From Clostridia bacterium DTU030 (lineage in GTDB: Bacteria > Bacillota > DTU030), in NCBI GenBank assembly GCA_001513125.1, contig LFSN01000006.1, positions 842 to 34,245 on the forward strand: a stretch of DNA of 33,404 nt, written 5' to 3'. The notes under the pieces are model-generated. The model worked only from the letters and a program-made list of their open reading frames with translations. It did not search any database and had not been told where the DNA came from. Shown piece after piece: positions 770-28,476 of the stretch. Position 1 is the stretch's first letter. Each line of letters opens with the position of its first letter. A program made the position numbers and the translations under genes.

Positions 770-3466
770 TTGAAAATGGTCAGTTTGACCATCGACGGTC
801 GCCCCGTGGAGGTACCCCAGGGCACAACGGTGCTGGAGGCGGCCCGGCAGGTGGGAATTGAAATCCCCACCCTCTGCCACCATGTGGACCTGAGCATTGC
901 CGGTGCCTGCCGGATGTGTGTAGTCGAGGTGGAAGGGAATAAGAAAAATCTTCCGGCCGCCTGTGCCCAACCGGCTATGGAGGGTATGGTGGTCCATACC
1001 AACAGCCCCAGGGTCAGGGAGGCAAGGAAGGTTGTCCTCGAGCTGATGGTGGCCAACCACCCCCTGGACTGCTTGACCTGTGAAGCCAACGGCAATTGCA
1101 AGCTCCAGCAGTACTGCTATGAGTATGGGGTGAAAGAAGCTACTTTTACCGGTGAGCGGCGCCGTTATACCGTCGATGAGGGTAACCCCTTTATCGAGCG
1201 GGACATGGAAAAATGCATCCTCTGCGGCAAGTGCGTCCGGGTTTGTCACGAGGTCCAGGGCGTAGGAGCCATTGACTACACGGAACGTGGTTTCGACACT
1301 AAAGTGACAACCTTTATGGACAATGGCCTGGCCGAATCCCCCTGTGTTTCCTGCGGCCAGTGCATCTATATGTGTCCCGTCGGAGCCCTGACTGCTAAAC
1401 CCAGCAAGGGGAAAGGGCGGGATTATGAGGTCGAAAAGGTGGTTACCACCTGCGGCTACTGCGGAGTTGGCTGTCAGCTTGCCTTTAATGTAAAGGATGA
1501 TCATATCGTTGGTGTTACTAATGTGCCCGACAGCCACAACCAGGGTTACCTCTGTGTTAAAGGCCGGTTTGGCTACGAGTTTGTTGACAGCCCTGACCGC
1601 CTGACTACTCCCTTGATTAAGGAGAACGGGGAGTTTCGAGAGGCCTCCTGGGAGGAAGCCCTGGATCTGGTAGCCCAAAAACTGGGTGAGGTAAAGGCCC
1701 AATATGGACCCGATGCCCTTGCCGGCCTTTCCTCTGCCCGGGTTACCAATGAGGAGAACTACCTCTTCCAAAAATTCTTCCGCGCAGTTATCGGCACCAA
1801 CAATGTCGATCACTGCGCCCGATTGTGACACGCTCCCACTGTAGCCGGTCTGGCTACTGCCTTTGGAAGCGGTGCAATGACTAACAGCATTGAAGAGATT
1901 GAACAAGCCAATGTAATCCTGGCGGCGGGAACCAATACCACCGAAGCCCATCCCGTAATTGCCACCCGGGTTCACAAGGCCATAACCCGGCATGGGGCCA
2001 AGCTGATCGTAATAGATCCCCGGAAGACGGAAATGGCCTCCTGGGCCCATATCTGGCTGCGGCCTTACCCGGGGACCAACGTGGCAGTCTTCAACGGCCT
2101 GCTCAACGTGATTATTGCCGAAGGCCTTGCTGACGATGAATTTATTGCCCAGCGGACAGAAAACTTTGCCGCCGTCAAGGAAGCCGTTGCTTCCTATACA
2201 CCGGAAGTGGTGGAGAAAATCAGCGGCGTACCCGCAGCTGATCTGGTAGCAGCGGCCCGCCTTTATGGCCAGGCAGAGCGGGGGTCCATCCTCTATACCA
2301 TGGGGGTAACCCAGCATACAACGGGTACCGAAGGAGTCCTGGCCATTGCCAACCTGGCCCTGGCCACCGGCAACCTGGGCAAGGAAGGGACGGGAGTCAA
2401 TCCCCTCCGGGGTCAGAATAACGTTCAGGGTGCCTGTGACATGGGAGCCCTGCCCAATGTTTTCACCGGCTACCAGAAGGTGACGGATCCTGCCGTCCGG
2501 GAGAAATTTGCCCGGGCTTGGGGAGTGGCGGAATTGCCGGCTGAAGTTGGTCTAACCATTGGCCAGATCATCGATGGTGCCGGGGAAGGAAAGATCCGGG
2601 CCCTGTATATAATGGGGGAAAACCCCATGCTCAGTGATCCCGATATCAACCATGTGGAAACCTCCCTCAAGAACCTGGACTTCCTGGTGGTGCAGGATAT
2701 CTTCCTGACGGAAACGGCCCGCCTGGCCGATGTGGTTCTCCCGGCAGTTTCCTTTGCTGAGAAGGAAGGCACCTTTACCAATACCGAGCGCCGGGTTTCC
2801 CGGGTGCGCCGGGCGGTGAGCCCCAGGGGCCAGGCAAAGGCCGACTGGGAGATTATAGCTGCCCTGGCGGCGAGGATGGGCTATGAAATGAACTACGAGG
2901 GACCTGAAGCCATCATGGAAGAAATTGCTGCCCTTACTCCCAGCTATGCCGGTATCACCTATGGGCGCCTGGAAAAGGGCGGGATCCAGTGGCCTTGCCC
3001 CGATAAGGAACATCCGGGTACTAAGTACTTGCACAAGGAGAAATTTGCCCGGGGCCTCGGCCTCTTCAACCCGGTTAGCTACAAGCCTTCAGCCGAGCTT
3101 CCCGATGACGAATATCCCTTGTATCTAACTACCGGACGGATTCTCTATCACTATCACACCGGGACTATGAGCAGGCGGGTGGAGGGGCTCAATGCCATCG
3201 CGCCCACTGGCCTTTTGGAAATCAATCCGGCCGACGCCTGTGAATTGGGCATAGAGGACGGAGAAGTGGTACGGGTGGTTTCCCGGCGGGGCAGCATTAC
3301 CCCGCAAGTGGAGATTACCGACCGGGTCGCCCCCGGGGTGGTATTCATGAACTTCCACTACCGGGAAGCAGCGGCCAATATCTTGACCAATGCCGTCTAT
3401 GACCCGATATCTGGAATTCCGGAGTTTAAAGTGAGTGCAGTAAGGATAGAAAGAATAGAAGGGTAG
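770..3466 (+). CDS. fdhA: Selenocysteine-containing formate dehydrogenase catalytic subunit, NAD(P)-linked type
   Basis: This is one 898-residue protein interrupted by an in-frame TGA at 1826-1828, which should be read as selenocysteine (residue 353). The frame continues without shift after it. Domain order: an N-terminal NuoG-like 2Fe-2S domain (Cys at CHH, CRMC and AAC, about residues 36-65), a His-Cys3 cluster region (HPLDCLTC...C), two 4Fe-4S motifs (CILCGKCVRVCH and CVSCGQCIYMCP), the CGYCGVGC cluster of the bis-MGD oxidoreductase fold, the active-site DHCARL-U-H, and a C-terminal molybdopterin-dinucleotide binding domain. It oxidises formate or reduces CO2 at a Mo or W bis-MGD centre. 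The start is TTG 770, eight bases after AGGAGG (756-761); ATG 776 is the alternative. It pairs with the upstream NuoF-like subunit. A naive call would split it into 770-1828 and 1877-3466. Confidence 0.96.
1826..1859 (+). promoter_or_regulatory. Selenocysteine UGA codon and bacterial SECIS hairpin of fdhA
   Basis: The UGA at 1826-1828 is followed by a hairpin with stem GTAGCC (1841-1846) / GGCTAC (1852-1857) and loop GGTCT (1847-1851). A further C1839-G1859 pair closes beyond a T-T mismatch. The GGUCU loop begins 18 bases after the UGA. From memory, the E. coli fdhF SECIS recognised by SelB has the same GGUCU loop core at the same distance. Confidence 0.9.
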
Positions 3467-5103: not shown

Positions 5104-5257
5104 TAGGTATACTAGAGAAAGGTGATTATAGGGGCTCAGGGCAAAACTAGTGGTATTCGTCCTGCCAACGCAGCGTTGTTTAAAAAGAGGATTTTGCTGA
5201 AGAAATCCCGAATATACGATTGTTTGTAGTGAATCCATCATCAAAGGGGTGAATAGA

Positions 5258-6580
5258 GTGGGTAGACTTACATTTCAAGGGGGAGTACACCCGAACTACC
5301 GTAAGGAAATCACCAGTGACCGGCCTATTACTCCACTTGCTGCTCCGGCCCAGGTGATTATACCCTTGCACCAAAATATCGGCGCTCCCCCCGAACCACT
5401 GGTAGCTGTAGGAGATCTGGTCAAGGTGGGCCAGAAGATCGCTGATACAGAAGCCTTTGTCTCGGCACCGGTCCATGCCAGTGTTTCCGGCAAGGTGGTT
5501 GCCATTGAAAACCGTCCCTCCTGCATCGGTAAGGAGGTGCTGGCGGTTGTAATTGAATCCGATGGTCAAGATACGCCCTGGGAGGGATTGCAGCCCTATC
5601 CAGCCCTGGAAGAGATGAGCCCCGACGATCTGCGTCAGGCCCTGCGGGAAGGAGGGCTGGTCGGCATGGGTGGAGCCATGTTCCCTACCCATGTCAAGGT
5701 TACGCCCCCTGAGGGTAAGAAATTTGATCTGGTGATCATAAACGGCTCCGAATGTGAAGGATACCTGACCTGTGACCACCGGATTATGTTAGAGTGGACC
5801 GAGGATGTCATTTATGGCACAAAGGCCTTCATGAAGGTGACCGGAGTCGATAAAGCCATTATTGGCGTGGAAGCCAATAAGCCCGATGCCATTGAACTAC
5901 TTCGGGAAAAATTGGCAGCAGAAGAGGGGATTGAGGTCAAATCCCTGGAGGTGAAGTACCCCCAGGGGGCAGAGAAACAATTGATCAAAGCCCTGACCGG
6001 ACGGGAAGTTCCCTCGGGAGGCCTGCCTGTCGATGTGGGATGTCTGGTGCAGAATGTGGGGACCGCTGCTGCCTTTGCCCAGTATTTGAAGACGGGCATG
6101 CCCCTGGTAGAGAGGGTTGTGACGGTAAGCGGGTCTTCCGTTGAGAATCCTGGGAACTTCCTGGTCAAGATCGGCACCCCCTTTGGTTATATTTTAGAAC
6201 ACTGTGGGGTTGTCGGTGAACCTAAGAAGCTGATTGCTGGCGGGCCTATGATGGGAGTAGCCCAGATTACTGCCGAAGTGCCGGTGGTAAAGGGAACGTC
6301 GGGGATTCTCCTCTTCGATAAGAAGGATGTCCCCGCAGGCGATGCAAGGCCGTGTGTCCGGTGTGCAAAATGTGTCGATGTCTGTCCAGTACAACTCCTT
6401 CCCCTCTTTTTAATGGATTACTCCCTGAAGGGTATGTTACACCGGGCGGAAGAGTATCATATTCTTGATTGTATCGAATGCGGCTGCTGCAGCTATACCT
6501 GTCCGAGCCGGCGTCCTTTGGTGCAGACTATTCGCATGGGGAAGGCAGATGTCCTAGCCCGGCGCAGGAAAAGGCAATAA
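5258..6580 (+). CDS. rnfC: Rnf complex subunit C, NADH-binding
   Basis: RnfC is the peripheral cytoplasmic subunit of the ion-translocating ferredoxin:NAD oxidoreductase. It binds NADH and FMN and carries two 4Fe-4S clusters. The 440-residue protein begins with the characteristic GRLTFQGGVHPNYRKE segment and a lipoyl/biotin-like domain. It continues through the GGAMFPTHVK and NGSECEGYLTCD regions of the NuoF-like fold, and ends with cluster motifs CVRCAKCVDVCP and CIECGCCSYTCPS. GTG 5258 is preferred because AAAGGGG (5243-5249) lies eight bases before it; GTG 5249 overlaps that site. It is the first gene of the operon, and the leader from 5104 shows no convincing promoter. Confidence 0.95.
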   Translation: MGRLTFQGGVHPNYRKEITSDRPITPLAAPAQVIIPLHQNIGAPPEPLVAVGDLVKVGQKIADTEAFVSAPVHASVSGKVVAIENRPSCIGKEVLAVVIESDGQDTPWEGLQPYPALEEMSPDDLRQALREGGLVGMGGAMFPTHVKVTPPEGKKFDLVIINGSECEGYLTCDHRIMLEWTEDVIYGTKAFMKVTGVDKAIIGVEANKPDAIELLREKLAAEEGIEVKSLEVKYPQGAEKQLIKALTGREVPSGGLPVDVGCLVQNVGTAAAFAQYLKTGMPLVERVVTVSGSSVENPGNFLVKIGTPFGYILEHCGVVGEPKKLIAGGPMMGVAQITAEVPVVKGTSGILLFDKKDVPAGDARPCVRCAKCVDVCPVQLLPLFLMDYSLKGMLHRAEEYHILDCIECGCCSYTCPSRRPLVQTIRMGKADVLARRRKRQ

Positions 6581-6601
6581 TAGATTGGAGGTTCGGATAG
6601 A

Positions 6602-7570
6602 ATGGTGAAGCTGGATAATCTTGTTGTATCCTCCTCGCCCCACCTTCGCTCCGGTGAAGATGTAGAAAAAATGATGTGGCATGTCAACCTGGCCCTCCTG
6701 CCAGCAGTAGTGCTGAGTGTCTATTATTTCGGTTTTCGGGCCCTGGCCATCATCGTCTTTTCTATCGCCGCGGCGGTGGCGACCGAGGCAATTATTCAGA
6801 AGGCAACTGGTAAAGATATTTATATTGCCGACGGCAGCGCAGTAGTTACAGGGCTCCTGTTGGGCATGAACATGCCTGTCCATGTGCCCTTGTGGCTGCC
6901 CGTGGTCGGTTCGGTATTTGCCATTGCAGTGGTGAAGGAAGCCTTCGGCGGTCTGGGCAGTAACTTTATCAATCCCGCCCTGGCAGCCCGGGCTGTGCTC
7001 CTGGCAGCCTGGCCGGTTCATATGACTTCCTATGCCGTTCCCTTTGTCGACGGCGCAACCCATGCGACCCCCCTGTCCATCCTTTCGGGGGCGGCCCAGG
7101 GTGAACTGCCCTCTTATCTGGACTTGTTCCTTGGCAATGTGGGCGGGGTCATTGGTGAAACTTCGGCCCTGGCCCTCCTGGTCGGTGGGATTTACCTGTT
7201 GGTGAAGGGTGTAATCGATTGGCGAACCCCCGTCGGTTTTTTGGGGACTGTCTTCGTCCTCAGCTGGATCTTCGGCGGAAATGCCGGTCTTTTCACCGGG
7301 GATCCCCTCTATCACCTGCTGGCCGGTGGCTTGATGCTGGGTGCCTTCTTCATGGCCACCGACTATGTCACTTCACCGGTAACAAAAACGGGTCGGTTGC
7401 TGATGGGTATCGGTGCAGGTGCCATTACTGTTATGATCCGCCTCTGGGGAGGGTATCCGGAAGGAGTATCCTACGCAATCTTGTTGATGAATGTGGCTAC
7501 CCCCCTCATTGACCGGTACACGGTCCCGCGGGTTTACGGTACAGCACGAAAACAACTGGCTCGGAGGTGA
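6602..7570 (+). CDS. rnfD: Rnf complex subunit D, membrane flavoprotein
   Basis: RnfD is an integral membrane subunit that normally carries covalently bound FMN and is thought to take part in ion translocation. The 322-residue protein has about eight to ten hydrophobic segments and the family motif GGLGSNFINPALAARA (residues 116-131). The flavinylation site is read as D150-G-A-T-H-A-T156: Thr156 is the expected FMN attachment residue, but His stands where Gly or Ser is usual in the (S/T)GAT-type motif. GGAGG (6585-6589) precedes the ATG by about 12 bases. The next gene begins five bases after its stop and is rnfE, not rnfG as in the usual C-D-G-E-A-B order. Confidence 0.95.
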   Translation: MVKLDNLVVSSSPHLRSGEDVEKMMWHVNLALLPAVVLSVYYFGFRALAIIVFSIAAAVATEAIIQKATGKDIYIADGSAVVTGLLLGMNMPVHVPLWLPVVGSVFAIAVVKEAFGGLGSNFINPALAARAVLLAAWPVHMTSYAVPFVDGATHATPLSILSGAAQGELPSYLDLFLGNVGGVIGETSALALLVGGIYLLVKGVIDWRTPVGFLGTVFVLSWIFGGNAGLFTGDPLYHLLAGGLMLGAFFMATDYVTSPVTKTGRLLMGIGAGAITVMIRLWGGYPEGVSYAILLMNVATPLIDRYTVPRVYGTARKQLARR

Positions 7571-7575
7571 GATTC

Positions 7576-8178
7576 ATGCGTATGTGGCAAGTTTTCAAGA
7601 ACGGAGTTCTCGATGAAAACCCAACCTTTAAATTGGTTCTGGGCATGTGCCCCACCCTGGCAGTGACAACGGCGGCGGCCAACGGGGTCTGGATGGGCTT
7701 GGCGGTGATCTTTGTCCTGACCATGTCCAATTTGGTGGTATCATTGATCAGAGATTTTATCCCCGACAAAATCCGGATCCCCTGCTATGTAGTGGTTATC
7801 GCCTCCTTTGTAACAATTGTTGACCTGCTCCTCAAGGCTTATCAGCCCGAGATGCACGCCAAACTGGGTATCTTTATCCCCCTTATCGTTGTCAACTGTA
7901 TTATCCTGGCCCGGGCCGAGGCCTTTGCCTCGAAAAATCCTGTTCTACCTTCCATTGTTGACGGCCTGGGCATGGGGGTTGGTTTCACCGTCGCCCTGAC
8001 CCTGCTCGGATGCATCCGGGAACTCCTTGGTGCAGGCACAGTCTTTGGCATCCAGGTACTGCCTGCTGCCTTTGAACCGGCCATAATTATGATTTTGCCC
8101 CCCGGGGCCTTCCTAACCCTGGGCTTTCTGCTGGGCTTCTTTAACTGGGCCGGGAAGCGGGCGAAACAGTTATCCTGA
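7576..8178 (+). CDS. rnfE: Rnf complex subunit E
   Basis: RnfE is a six-helix membrane subunit that pairs with RnfA around a central 2Fe-2S cluster. The 200-residue protein keeps the expected cysteines, C25 in LGMCPTLAV and C108 in VVNCIILARAEAFAS. This, together with the DENPTFKLVLG and FGIQVLP-like regions, identifies it as RnfE rather than RnfA. GGAGG (7563-7567) lies eight bases before ATG 7576 and overlaps the rnfD stop; the in-frame GTG at 7567 overlaps the ribosome site and is rejected. Translation is probably coupled to rnfD. Confidence 0.95.
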   Translation: MRMWQVFKNGVLDENPTFKLVLGMCPTLAVTTAAANGVWMGLAVIFVLTMSNLVVSLIRDFIPDKIRIPCYVVVIASFVTIVDLLLKAYQPEMHAKLGIFIPLIVVNCIILARAEAFASKNPVLPSIVDGLGMGVGFTVALTLLGCIRELLGAGTVFGIQVLPAAFEPAIIMILPPGAFLTLGFLLGFFNWAGKRAKQLS

Positions 8179-8208
8179 TCTAACGGGAAATAAAGGAGGG
8201 ATGGGCCT

Positions 8209-8796
8209 ATGGAGTATGTGGCAATTATCCTCACCAATATACTGATCAACAACTTTATCGTGTCACGGTTTTTGGGAATTTGCCCCTTTCTCGGTGTGTC
8301 CAAACAGATAGAGACGGCCACGGGAATGGGCATAGCGGTAACCTTCGTCATGACCGTAGCCTCGGCGGTAACCTGGGCAACGGAACGTTTTGTCCTTGCA
8401 ACAATGGGTCTGGAGTACCTCCAAACGGTAATCTTTATTCTGGTCATTGCTGCCCTGGTTCAGTTTGTGGAGATGGTCATTTTGAAAACCAGCCCCACCC
8501 TATACCAGGCCCTGGGCGTCTATTTGCCCCTTATCACCACAAACTGTGCTATTTTGGGCGTGGCTGTGATCAACGTGCAGGAATTCTATAACTTTGGCCA
8601 GAGTATCGTCAGCGGCTTTTCGGCAGGGCTTGGGTTTACCCTTGCCATCATCCTCTTTGCCGGGATTAGGGAACGGCTGGAACTGGCCGATATTCCCGAA
8701 AGCCTGGAGGGTTTTCCCATTGCCTTGATTTCCGCCGGTCTCATGTCTGTGGCCTTCTTCGGTTTCCAGGGGCTCTTTTCTGCATTCTTGTCGTAG
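8209..8796 (+). CDS. rnfA: Rnf complex subunit A
   Basis: RnfA is the inverted-topology partner of RnfE in the membrane core. The 195-residue protein opens with EYVAIILTNILINNFIVSRFLGICPFLGVSK, shown here only as a family-typical N-terminus. It has the cluster cysteines C25 (GICPF) and C113 (TTNCAILG) and six hydrophobic segments. It follows rnfE by 30 bases with an AAAGGAGGG ribosome site, and precedes rnfB by 12 bases. Nothing is missing or unusual in this subunit. Confidence 0.96.
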   Translation: MEYVAIILTNILINNFIVSRFLGICPFLGVSKQIETATGMGIAVTFVMTVASAVTWATERFVLATMGLEYLQTVIFILVIAALVQFVEMVILKTSPTLYQALGVYLPLITTNCAILGVAVINVQEFYNFGQSIVSGFSAGLGFTLAIILFAGIRERLELADIPESLEGFPIALISAGLMSVAFFGFQGLFSAFLS

Positions 8797-8808
8797 GAGG
8801 TATAGGCG

Positions 8809-9606
8809 GTGTTACAAGCGATTTTAAGTATGGGTGTCTTTGGTCTCGTTCTAGGTGGGCTCCTGGGCTATGCGGCCAAGATCTTTGCCGTTGAAACCGA
8901 TACCAGGGCTGAGGCTATAGGTGAAGTTTTACCAGGAGCCAATTGCGGTGCCTGCGGTTTTCCAGGCTGTAACGCCCTGGCAGAAGCCATTGCCAAGGGG
9001 GAGGCAGCTCACGATGCCTGCCCGGTGGGGGGAGCAGCTGTGGCCCAAAAGGTAGCCGAGATTATGGGTGTAGATATGGAAGCGGCGGCTGAACTTGCTC
9101 CTCCAAAGGCCAAGCTGATCTGCCGGGGAGGCAAGGAAGAATGCCGCCAGCTGGCCGAATACGATGGCCTGCCCGACTGCCGGGCAGCCAATATGTACGC
9201 TTCGGCGGGTCGGGCCTGTACCTATGCCTGCCTGGGCTTTGGCAACTGTGCCCGGATTTGTCCCTTTGGGGCCATTACCATGAATGAAAACAGGCTGCCG
9301 GAAATTGATCCCGAGAAGTGCACGGCCTGCGGCAAGTGTATCGAGGCCTGTCCCAAAGGTGTTTTGACCCTGATCCCGGAGACGGCCCGGATCTATGTGG
9401 CCTGCAGTTCCAACGATCCTGCCCGCAAGGTAAACAAGGTCTGCAGTGTGGGCTGTATTGCCTGCCGGATCTGTGAAAAGGTTTGCCCGGCCGATGCCAT
9501 ACATGTAGAAAATAACGTGGCTGTCATCGATTATGAAAAGTGTACCCTCTGCGGCCTCTGTGTGGAGAAATGTCCTCGCAAGATTATCATGGATGAGAGG
9601 GACTGA
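8809..9606 (+). CDS. rnfB: Rnf complex subunit B, ferredoxin-type electron input
   Basis: RnfB is the membrane-anchored iron-sulfur subunit that accepts electrons from reduced ferredoxin. The 265-residue protein has one N-terminal transmembrane helix (about residues 3-24), then the four-Cys cluster motif NCGACGFPGCNALAEAI with a further Cys (DACPVGG). Several 4Fe-4S motifs follow: CLGFGNCARICP, CTACGKCIEACP, CIACRICEKVCP and CTLCGLCVEKCP. GTG 8809 lies eight bases after AGGAGG (8795-8800). It is the last gene of the operon, and transcription should stop at the terminator near 9692. Confidence 0.96.
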   Translation: MLQAILSMGVFGLVLGGLLGYAAKIFAVETDTRAEAIGEVLPGANCGACGFPGCNALAEAIAKGEAAHDACPVGGAAVAQKVAEIMGVDMEAAAELAPPKAKLICRGGKEECRQLAEYDGLPDCRAANMYASAGRACTYACLGFGNCARICPFGAITMNENRLPEIDPEKCTACGKCIEACPKGVLTLIPETARIYVACSSNDPARKVNKVCSVGCIACRICEKVCPADAIHVENNVAVIDYEKCTLCGLCVEKCPRKIIMDERD

Positions 9607-28010: not shown

Positions 28011-28040
28011 GAAGGGACCGGCCCCGGCGCCGGTCCCTTC
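28011..28040. repeat. Perfect GC-rich hairpin between kinase and HesB-like gene
   Basis: GAAGGGACCGG (28011-28021) and CCGGTCCCTTC (28030-28040) form an 11-bp stem with an 8-base loop between convergent genes. Neither strand has a proper T-tract after the stem, so a terminator role is plausible but not canonical. Confidence 0.55.
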
Positions 28041-28110: not shown

Positions 28111-28404
28111 TCAGCAGCAGGAATTACCACTGCTGATGTGGAAGCCACTGCCCAGCCAACTTTTGCGGTAGTCGATGATGCTGCCGCTCAGGTACTGTTT
28201 AAGATCCCCTTCCACAACAAAGTTGAGACCCTCCACTTGGAAGACAGTGTCTTCTTCGCGAGCTGACTCATCCAGAGTCAGGCCAAACCTGGGGCCTCCT
28301 CAGCCAAAACCCTGGAAATATATGCGGATAAAGGGATTGGCTGCCTCCTTTTCAGCCAGGAGTTCCTGGAGCTTTTCTTTGGCCCGGGGAGTTATATTGA
28401 GCAA
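28111..28404 (-). CDS. HesB/IscA-like selenoprotein
   Basis: This 97-residue protein is read from TTG 28404 to the TGA at 28111-28113, through an in-frame UGA at 28302-28300 that should encode selenocysteine (residue 35). The sequence around it, QGFG-U-GGPRFGLTLDE, matches the GxGCGGP-x-x-GLxLDE region of the HesB/IscA-like family, with Sec in place of the conserved Cys. The C-terminal half (NFVVEGDLKQYL, IIDY) is also family-like, and the protein ends in Cys-Cys. HesB-like selenoproteins are a known bacterial group; the exact role (iron-sulfur carrier or redox) is not settled. AAAGGAGTG (28419-28411) lies eight bases before the TTG. ATG 28422 is in frame but has no ribosome site. Because of the UGA, neither half is long enough to be called normally. 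Confidence 0.88.
28263..28302 (-). promoter_or_regulatory. Selenocysteine UGA and candidate SECIS hairpin of the HesB-like gene
   Basis: Read on the minus strand, the UGA (28302-28300) is followed by a perfect 7-bp hairpin, CTGACTC / GAGTCAG (28281-28263), with loop TGGAT. The loop begins 26 bases after the UGA and has G as its second base. As I recall them, bacterial SECIS rules want a loop about 16-37 bases from the UGA with G in the first two loop positions. Confidence 0.75.
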
Positions 28405-28432
28405 CGGTAACACTCCTTTCATTATTTCGAAT

Positions 28433-28476
28433 AATACCCCTATGGGTATTTTGACACAGAGAGTTAGAATTGTCAA
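28433..28476 (-). promoter_or_regulatory. Promoter of the HesB-like gene overlapped by a CsoR-type palindrome
   Basis: On the minus strand a perfect -35 TTGACA (28476-28471), a 17-base spacer and CAAAAT (28453-28448, four of six) form a promoter. An inverted repeat, AATACCC-ATAG-GGGTATT (28450-28433), overlaps the -10 and start point. The palindrome resembles operators of the CsoR/CstR family of copper- or persulfide-sensing repressors (A/T-flanked ACCC...GGGT). No regulator of that family is encoded in the window. Confidence 0.65.

Follow-up and report, generated by a model that had tools for sequence, protein, structure and literature searches.

The window analysed here, a 33,404-nucleotide stretch of a contig from Clostridia bacterium DTU030, carries on its minus strand a short hesB/iscA-like gene with an in-frame UGA at codon 35. 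A sequence-only reading of the window had proposed this gene, adding that ordinary gene calling would overlook it. Re-reading of the start, UGA and stop positions found the proposed coordinates and frame to be exact (Table 1). Translation of the minus strand from 28404 to 28111 gives LLNITPRAKEKLQELLAEKEAANPFIRIYFQGFG-U-GGPRFGLTLDESAREEDTVFQVEGLNFVVEGDLKQYLSGSIIDYRKSWLGSGFHISSGNSCC-stop, where the TTG start codon occupies 28404-28402 and the terminal Cys-Cys-UGA ends at 28111. Since the list of open reading frames for the window contains no minus-strand frame of at least 60 amino acids over 28111-28404, it is fair to describe the stretch as empty to normal gene calling. Homologues begin with ATG or GTG at the same residue as the TTG of the window, with a similar ribosome-binding site ahead, and two close relatives (L024 and L026) have an identical AAAGGAG at the equivalent place.

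Table 1. Coordinates of the hesB-like locus and of a second selenoprotein gene in the window
Feature	Position	Strand	Basis and remarks
hesB/iscA-like selenoprotein gene	28111..28404	(-)	97 aa, TTG start, UGA stop; translation, and PF01521/TIGR00049 above cut-off
UGA at codon 35, decoded as Sec within GFG-U-GGP	28300..28302	(-)	UGA in 48 distinct genes, Cys in 23 related
bSECIS stem-loop CUGACUC-UGGAU-GAGUCAG	28263..28281	(-)	Rule fit, predicted fold, two-sided changes, synonymous-site constraint
Ribosome-binding site AAAGGAG	28413..28419	(-)	8 nt upstream of TTG; read directly
Candidate promoter TTGACA-17-CAAAAT, extended -10 TG	28448..28476	(-)	Consensus scan alone
Formate dehydrogenase alpha subunit, second selenoprotein of the window	776..3466	(+)	Sec at UGA 1826-1828, CARL-U-HAPT

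The gene ends in a further UGA at codon 98, directly behind the two Cys residues. Were this codon also to encode selenocysteine, the product would be a longer protein with two Sec residues and a Cys-Cys-Sec tail, and some relatives do share a UGA after the last Cys. However, a relative at 77% identity (L024) has TAA in this place, most homologues end in TAA or TAG, and the readthrough extensions of the window gene and L025 show no similarity to one another. We consider a second Sec very improbable and reject it; on the strength of the TAA in L024 and the unrelated readthrough tails, the gene is taken to use UGA once as Sec and once as a stop.

The hesB-like gene stands alone, with a convergent sensor histidine kinase gene on one side and a divergent spermidine-synthase-like gene on the other, beyond which lies a gene that reads as a metallophosphatase. 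This arrangement of kinase, spermidine-synthase-like and metallophosphatase neighbours recurs in relatives from the same genus and family, and the hesB-like gene shows no linkage to isc genes. Between the convergent hesB-like and kinase genes there is a perfect 11-bp inverted repeat (GAAGGGACCGG/CCGGTCCCTTC, window positions 28011-28040), which has no clear T-run on either strand. Elsewhere in the window, positions 5249-9606 of the plus strand hold a cluster that looks like Rnf, with the gene order C, D, E, A, B. D and E overlap at 7567-7570, which leaves rnfG no space between them; no apbE adjoins the cluster, and genes for FMN_bind and ApbE proteins lie on other contigs.

Family assignment and conservation of the UGA codon

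Scored with Cys substituted at position 35, the window protein matches PF01521 over residues 2-94 (44.4 bits, cut-off 26.3) and TIGR00049 from end to end (62-63 bits, cut-off 58.8), and so passes the score thresholds of the A-type Fe-S carrier superfamily. The PF01521 match found at this locus in the organism's own genome carries one internal TGA and its frame runs across that codon, so that homology lies on both sides of the UGA, as the original proposal had it, and not on one side alone. Solved relatives are A-type proteins, namely HI1723 (2apn), AQ_1857 (1nwb), IscA and SufA, and the first two align with the window protein over residues 3-95. Canonical IscA, ErpA and SufA possess three conserved Cys ligands, one of them central and the other two forming a C-x-C at the C-terminus. 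The window protein departs from this pattern: the central Cys is replaced by Sec and the tail reads Ser-Cys-Cys.

Two hallmarks of the HesB-like selenoproteins are present, namely a Sec-UGA at the first conserved Cys within the motif UxGP (here GFGUGGP; motif as given in PMC13188914) and a bSECIS downstream of it. The dedicated profile models are nevertheless not reached: the best NCBIfam model, NF038090 (IscA_HesB_Se), gives 68.1 bits against a cut-off of 85, and TIGR01911 (HesB_rel_seleno) gives 50.1 bits against 66.35. Because both scores fall under their cut-offs, the window protein is, judged by its sequence, a divergent HesB-like selenoprotein that is not filed under either model. Indeed, none of the eight proteins that were scored individually (seven UGA types and one Cys type, the window protein among them) reaches the cut-off of NF038090 or TIGR01911.

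Relatives were counted by whole-genome searches across the phylum, using a sample of 399 Bacillota genomes; a contig scan with a single query sequence had returned two loci only. A relative is present in 102 of the 399 genomes (about a quarter), with one in-frame TGA in most of the best matches, and none was found in the viral contigs searched. Within the same order, four other genomes were sampled and three have a relative. These three all belong to the same taxonomic family, are 63-77% identical to the window protein with one TGA each, and each keeps at least one of the window's neighbouring genes. Base-by-base reading of 71 loci besides the window revealed TGA at exactly this column in 48 and Cys in the remaining 23. 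L024 and L053 among the 48 are identical in sequence, which leaves 47; the window gene brings the number of distinct UGA genes back to 48. Such conservation far exceeds chance, and the placement of UGA 35 at the family's conserved Cys, on which the sequence-only reading was built, is thereby upheld.

An in-frame UGA might instead be a real stop, arising from decay of the gene or from a sequencing error in a TGC or TGT codon. Nothing speaks for this beyond the UGA itself. Against it, 48 genes from different genomes, including three from the organism's own taxonomic family, have UGA in this position; homology continues past the codon, which is followed by a SECIS and by constraint at synonymous sites (see below). 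Sequencing error and pseudogene are ruled out by the 48 distinct UGA genes together with the synonymous constraint, leaving a real stop with a probability close to nil.

In a tree based on few columns and containing many weak forks, two changes suffice to account for the Sec and Cys states. The canonical Cys proteins of the GGCSGF type lie on one side, and a second Cys group (L042, L074 and L075) is nested within the Sec rows on well supported branches, such that its Cys state looks like a loss of Sec to Cys. The members of this group are HesB-like proteins of one family (f5). In L042 a fragment of SECIS-like sequence (CTCTGGATGATTCG) persists, as would be expected had Sec given way to Cys recently. 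A HesB-like protein of Desulfitobacterium has been published as a Sec-to-Cys case (PMC1794560).

The downstream hairpin and selenocysteine decoding

Bacterial SECIS elements follow a rule that calls for a loop of 3-9 nt that has a G at position 1 or 2, a stem of at least 4 bp and a distance of 16-37 nt from UGA to loop (PMC13188914). The window hairpin has a 7-bp stem and a UGGAU loop beginning 25 nt after the UGA; it fits these rules (p = 0.003 against synonymous recodings), in agreement with what had been noticed at first sight, and appears in the predicted fold of the region. Taken by itself, the folding energy of this region is uninformative (z 0.03), and the weight lies with the comparative evidence. 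No Rfam family lies within the window; we know of no Rfam model for the bacterial SECIS.

A further 25 UGA loci (24 distinct) were tested, and every one has a rule-fitting hairpin at 25-26 nt, the weakest being that of L040; the close Cys homologue L042 has no bSECIS hairpin by the same test. When 27 distinct UGA genes are compared, pairing holds in 96.3% of stem cells, and four of the seven pairs have changed on both sides. Sliding the stem partner lowers the pairing to 20-44%; shuffle figures for the same comparison are inflated by kinship of the genes. Two codons within the stem are informative in addition. The third base of a Thr/Ala codon in the left arm is T in 48/48 UGA genes (background 29%) and that of a Glu/Lys codon in the right arm is G in 48/48 (background 34%), while the Cys genes are mixed at the Thr/Ala site (T 7, C 11, G 3, A 1). 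Both sites are synonymous and hence outside protein-level selection, and their bias is absent from the Cys homologues.

The genome contains all of selA, selB, selC and selD, which the sequence-only reading had named as genes to look for. Contig C79 carries selA (620 bits), selB (374 bits across its frame) and a tRNA-Sec with anticodon UCA together, and the product of selD, which lies on C48, contains Sec in turn (RSAGUAAK). The window also encodes a second selenoprotein, the alpha subunit of formate dehydrogenase (TIGR01591, 912.5 bits, cut-off 666.25); the loop of a SECIS-like hairpin starts 18 nt beyond its UGA. Given this machinery, the Sec form of selD and the formate dehydrogenase, decoding of UGA as Sec in this genome is established as far as sequence can show. 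The formate dehydrogenase subunit has a NuoG-like N-terminus, its gene is split by standard ORF calling into 770-1828 and 1877-3466, and frames reading as mobA-like and fdhD come after it.

We conclude that the hesB-like gene very probably encodes a genuine Sec-containing protein. Ribosomes arriving at UGA 35 of the hesB-like mRNA would encounter SelB, carrying Sec-tRNA(UCA) and bound to the hairpin just downstream, and Sec would be inserted, as the presence of the machinery and the conserved SECIS suggest.

Iron-sulphur assembly genes and a possible role

PF01521 has a single match in the whole genome, a 95% complete draft, and this is the hesB-like selenoprotein. One IscU is encoded, adjacent to IscS, in an iscS-iscU-mnmA cluster at G000:C20 (L055), where iscS and mnmA were named by inspecting frames. 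The stretch read there contains no iscA, hscA/hscB or fdx beside these genes, and no SufB/D was found in the 95% complete genome. No A-type protein besides the selenoprotein was found in this genome, which has IscS-IscU and no SufB/D, although at this completeness gaps could account both for the selenoprotein's solitary status and for the lack of SufB/D.

Because it is the sole PF01521 protein, and because the iscS-iscU-mnmA cluster comes without iscA in a genome with no SufB/D, the simplest role we can infer would be that of the A-type carrier in Fe-S assembly, Sec serving as the first ligand. The Sec would stand where IscA/ErpA have their first cluster-ligand Cys; it and the Cys tail at the C-terminus would most likely bind an Fe-S cluster or iron, which could then be handed to client enzymes; the protein would do so as the only A-type protein found where IscS-IscU builds clusters. 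The selenium-based redox or metal chemistry suggested by the sequence-only reading may hold for this protein, and we lean, with some reserve, towards a function as an Fe-S or iron carrier.

The C-terminal tail gives cause for that reserve. Roughly half of the UGA homologues read carry only a single Cys there and one carries none, so the three-thiol set of canonical IscA is not kept, and a Sec-Cys redox centre has to be taken seriously as a rival. The Sec would then form a selenenylsulfide with the C-terminal Cys and reduce peroxide, disulfides or metal(loid)s, with no part in Fe-S carriage. Nearly all homologues have at least one Cys, and often just one, close to the end of the chain, which would suit a Sec-Cys pair, and most prokaryotic selenoproteins are thought to act in redox reactions (PMC9312934). 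On the other hand, the families and solved structures nearest to the window protein are Fe-S carriers, it contains neither CxxU nor UxxC, and the genes next to the hesB-like gene include no redox partner. We regard a purely redox function as possible but rather unlikely.

Returning to carriage of Fe-S clusters or iron, we are more doubtful still of its strongest form, in which a minimal IscS-IscU system in this lineage would have the selenoprotein as its sole A-type carrier and Sec would be a natural ligand of a transferable Fe-S cluster. If true, this would amount to a selenium-dependent step in Fe-S biogenesis. Genomes of this sort, in which no other A-type protein is found, are a good place to ask whether selenium joins Fe-S cluster handling.

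Comparison with known A-type proteins

HesB-like selenoproteins have been catalogued in PMC1794560 (2006; 11 members), PMC9312934 and PMC13188914. The group has thus been known for about 20 years (since at least 2006), and the window gene is a new divergent member of it. A passage of PMC11097638 cites the identification of the Methanococcus maripaludis HesB-like selenoprotein through mutagenesis and 75Se labelling; disruption of this homologue left nitrogen fixation unimpaired and its function is termed unclear (PMC11097638). What the present analysis corrects is a gap in annotation: many of the relatives in the 102 of 399 genomes are UGA genes lost by standard calling, and the UGA relatives scored here also fall below the curated selenoprotein models.

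The window protein resembles the carriers ErpA, IscA and SufA in that homology extends over its whole length. It differs from them in having Sec for the first Cys, with GxGUGGP where the carriers have GGCSGFSY, and in being without the C-terminal C-x-C pair, and it scores far under all three equivalog cut-offs. With the HesB-like selenoproteins represented by TIGR01911 and NF038090 it has in common the A-type fold, the Sec in UxGP at the first conserved Cys and the downstream bSECIS, but it lies below both curated cut-offs and has a short tail ending in Ser-Cys-Cys.
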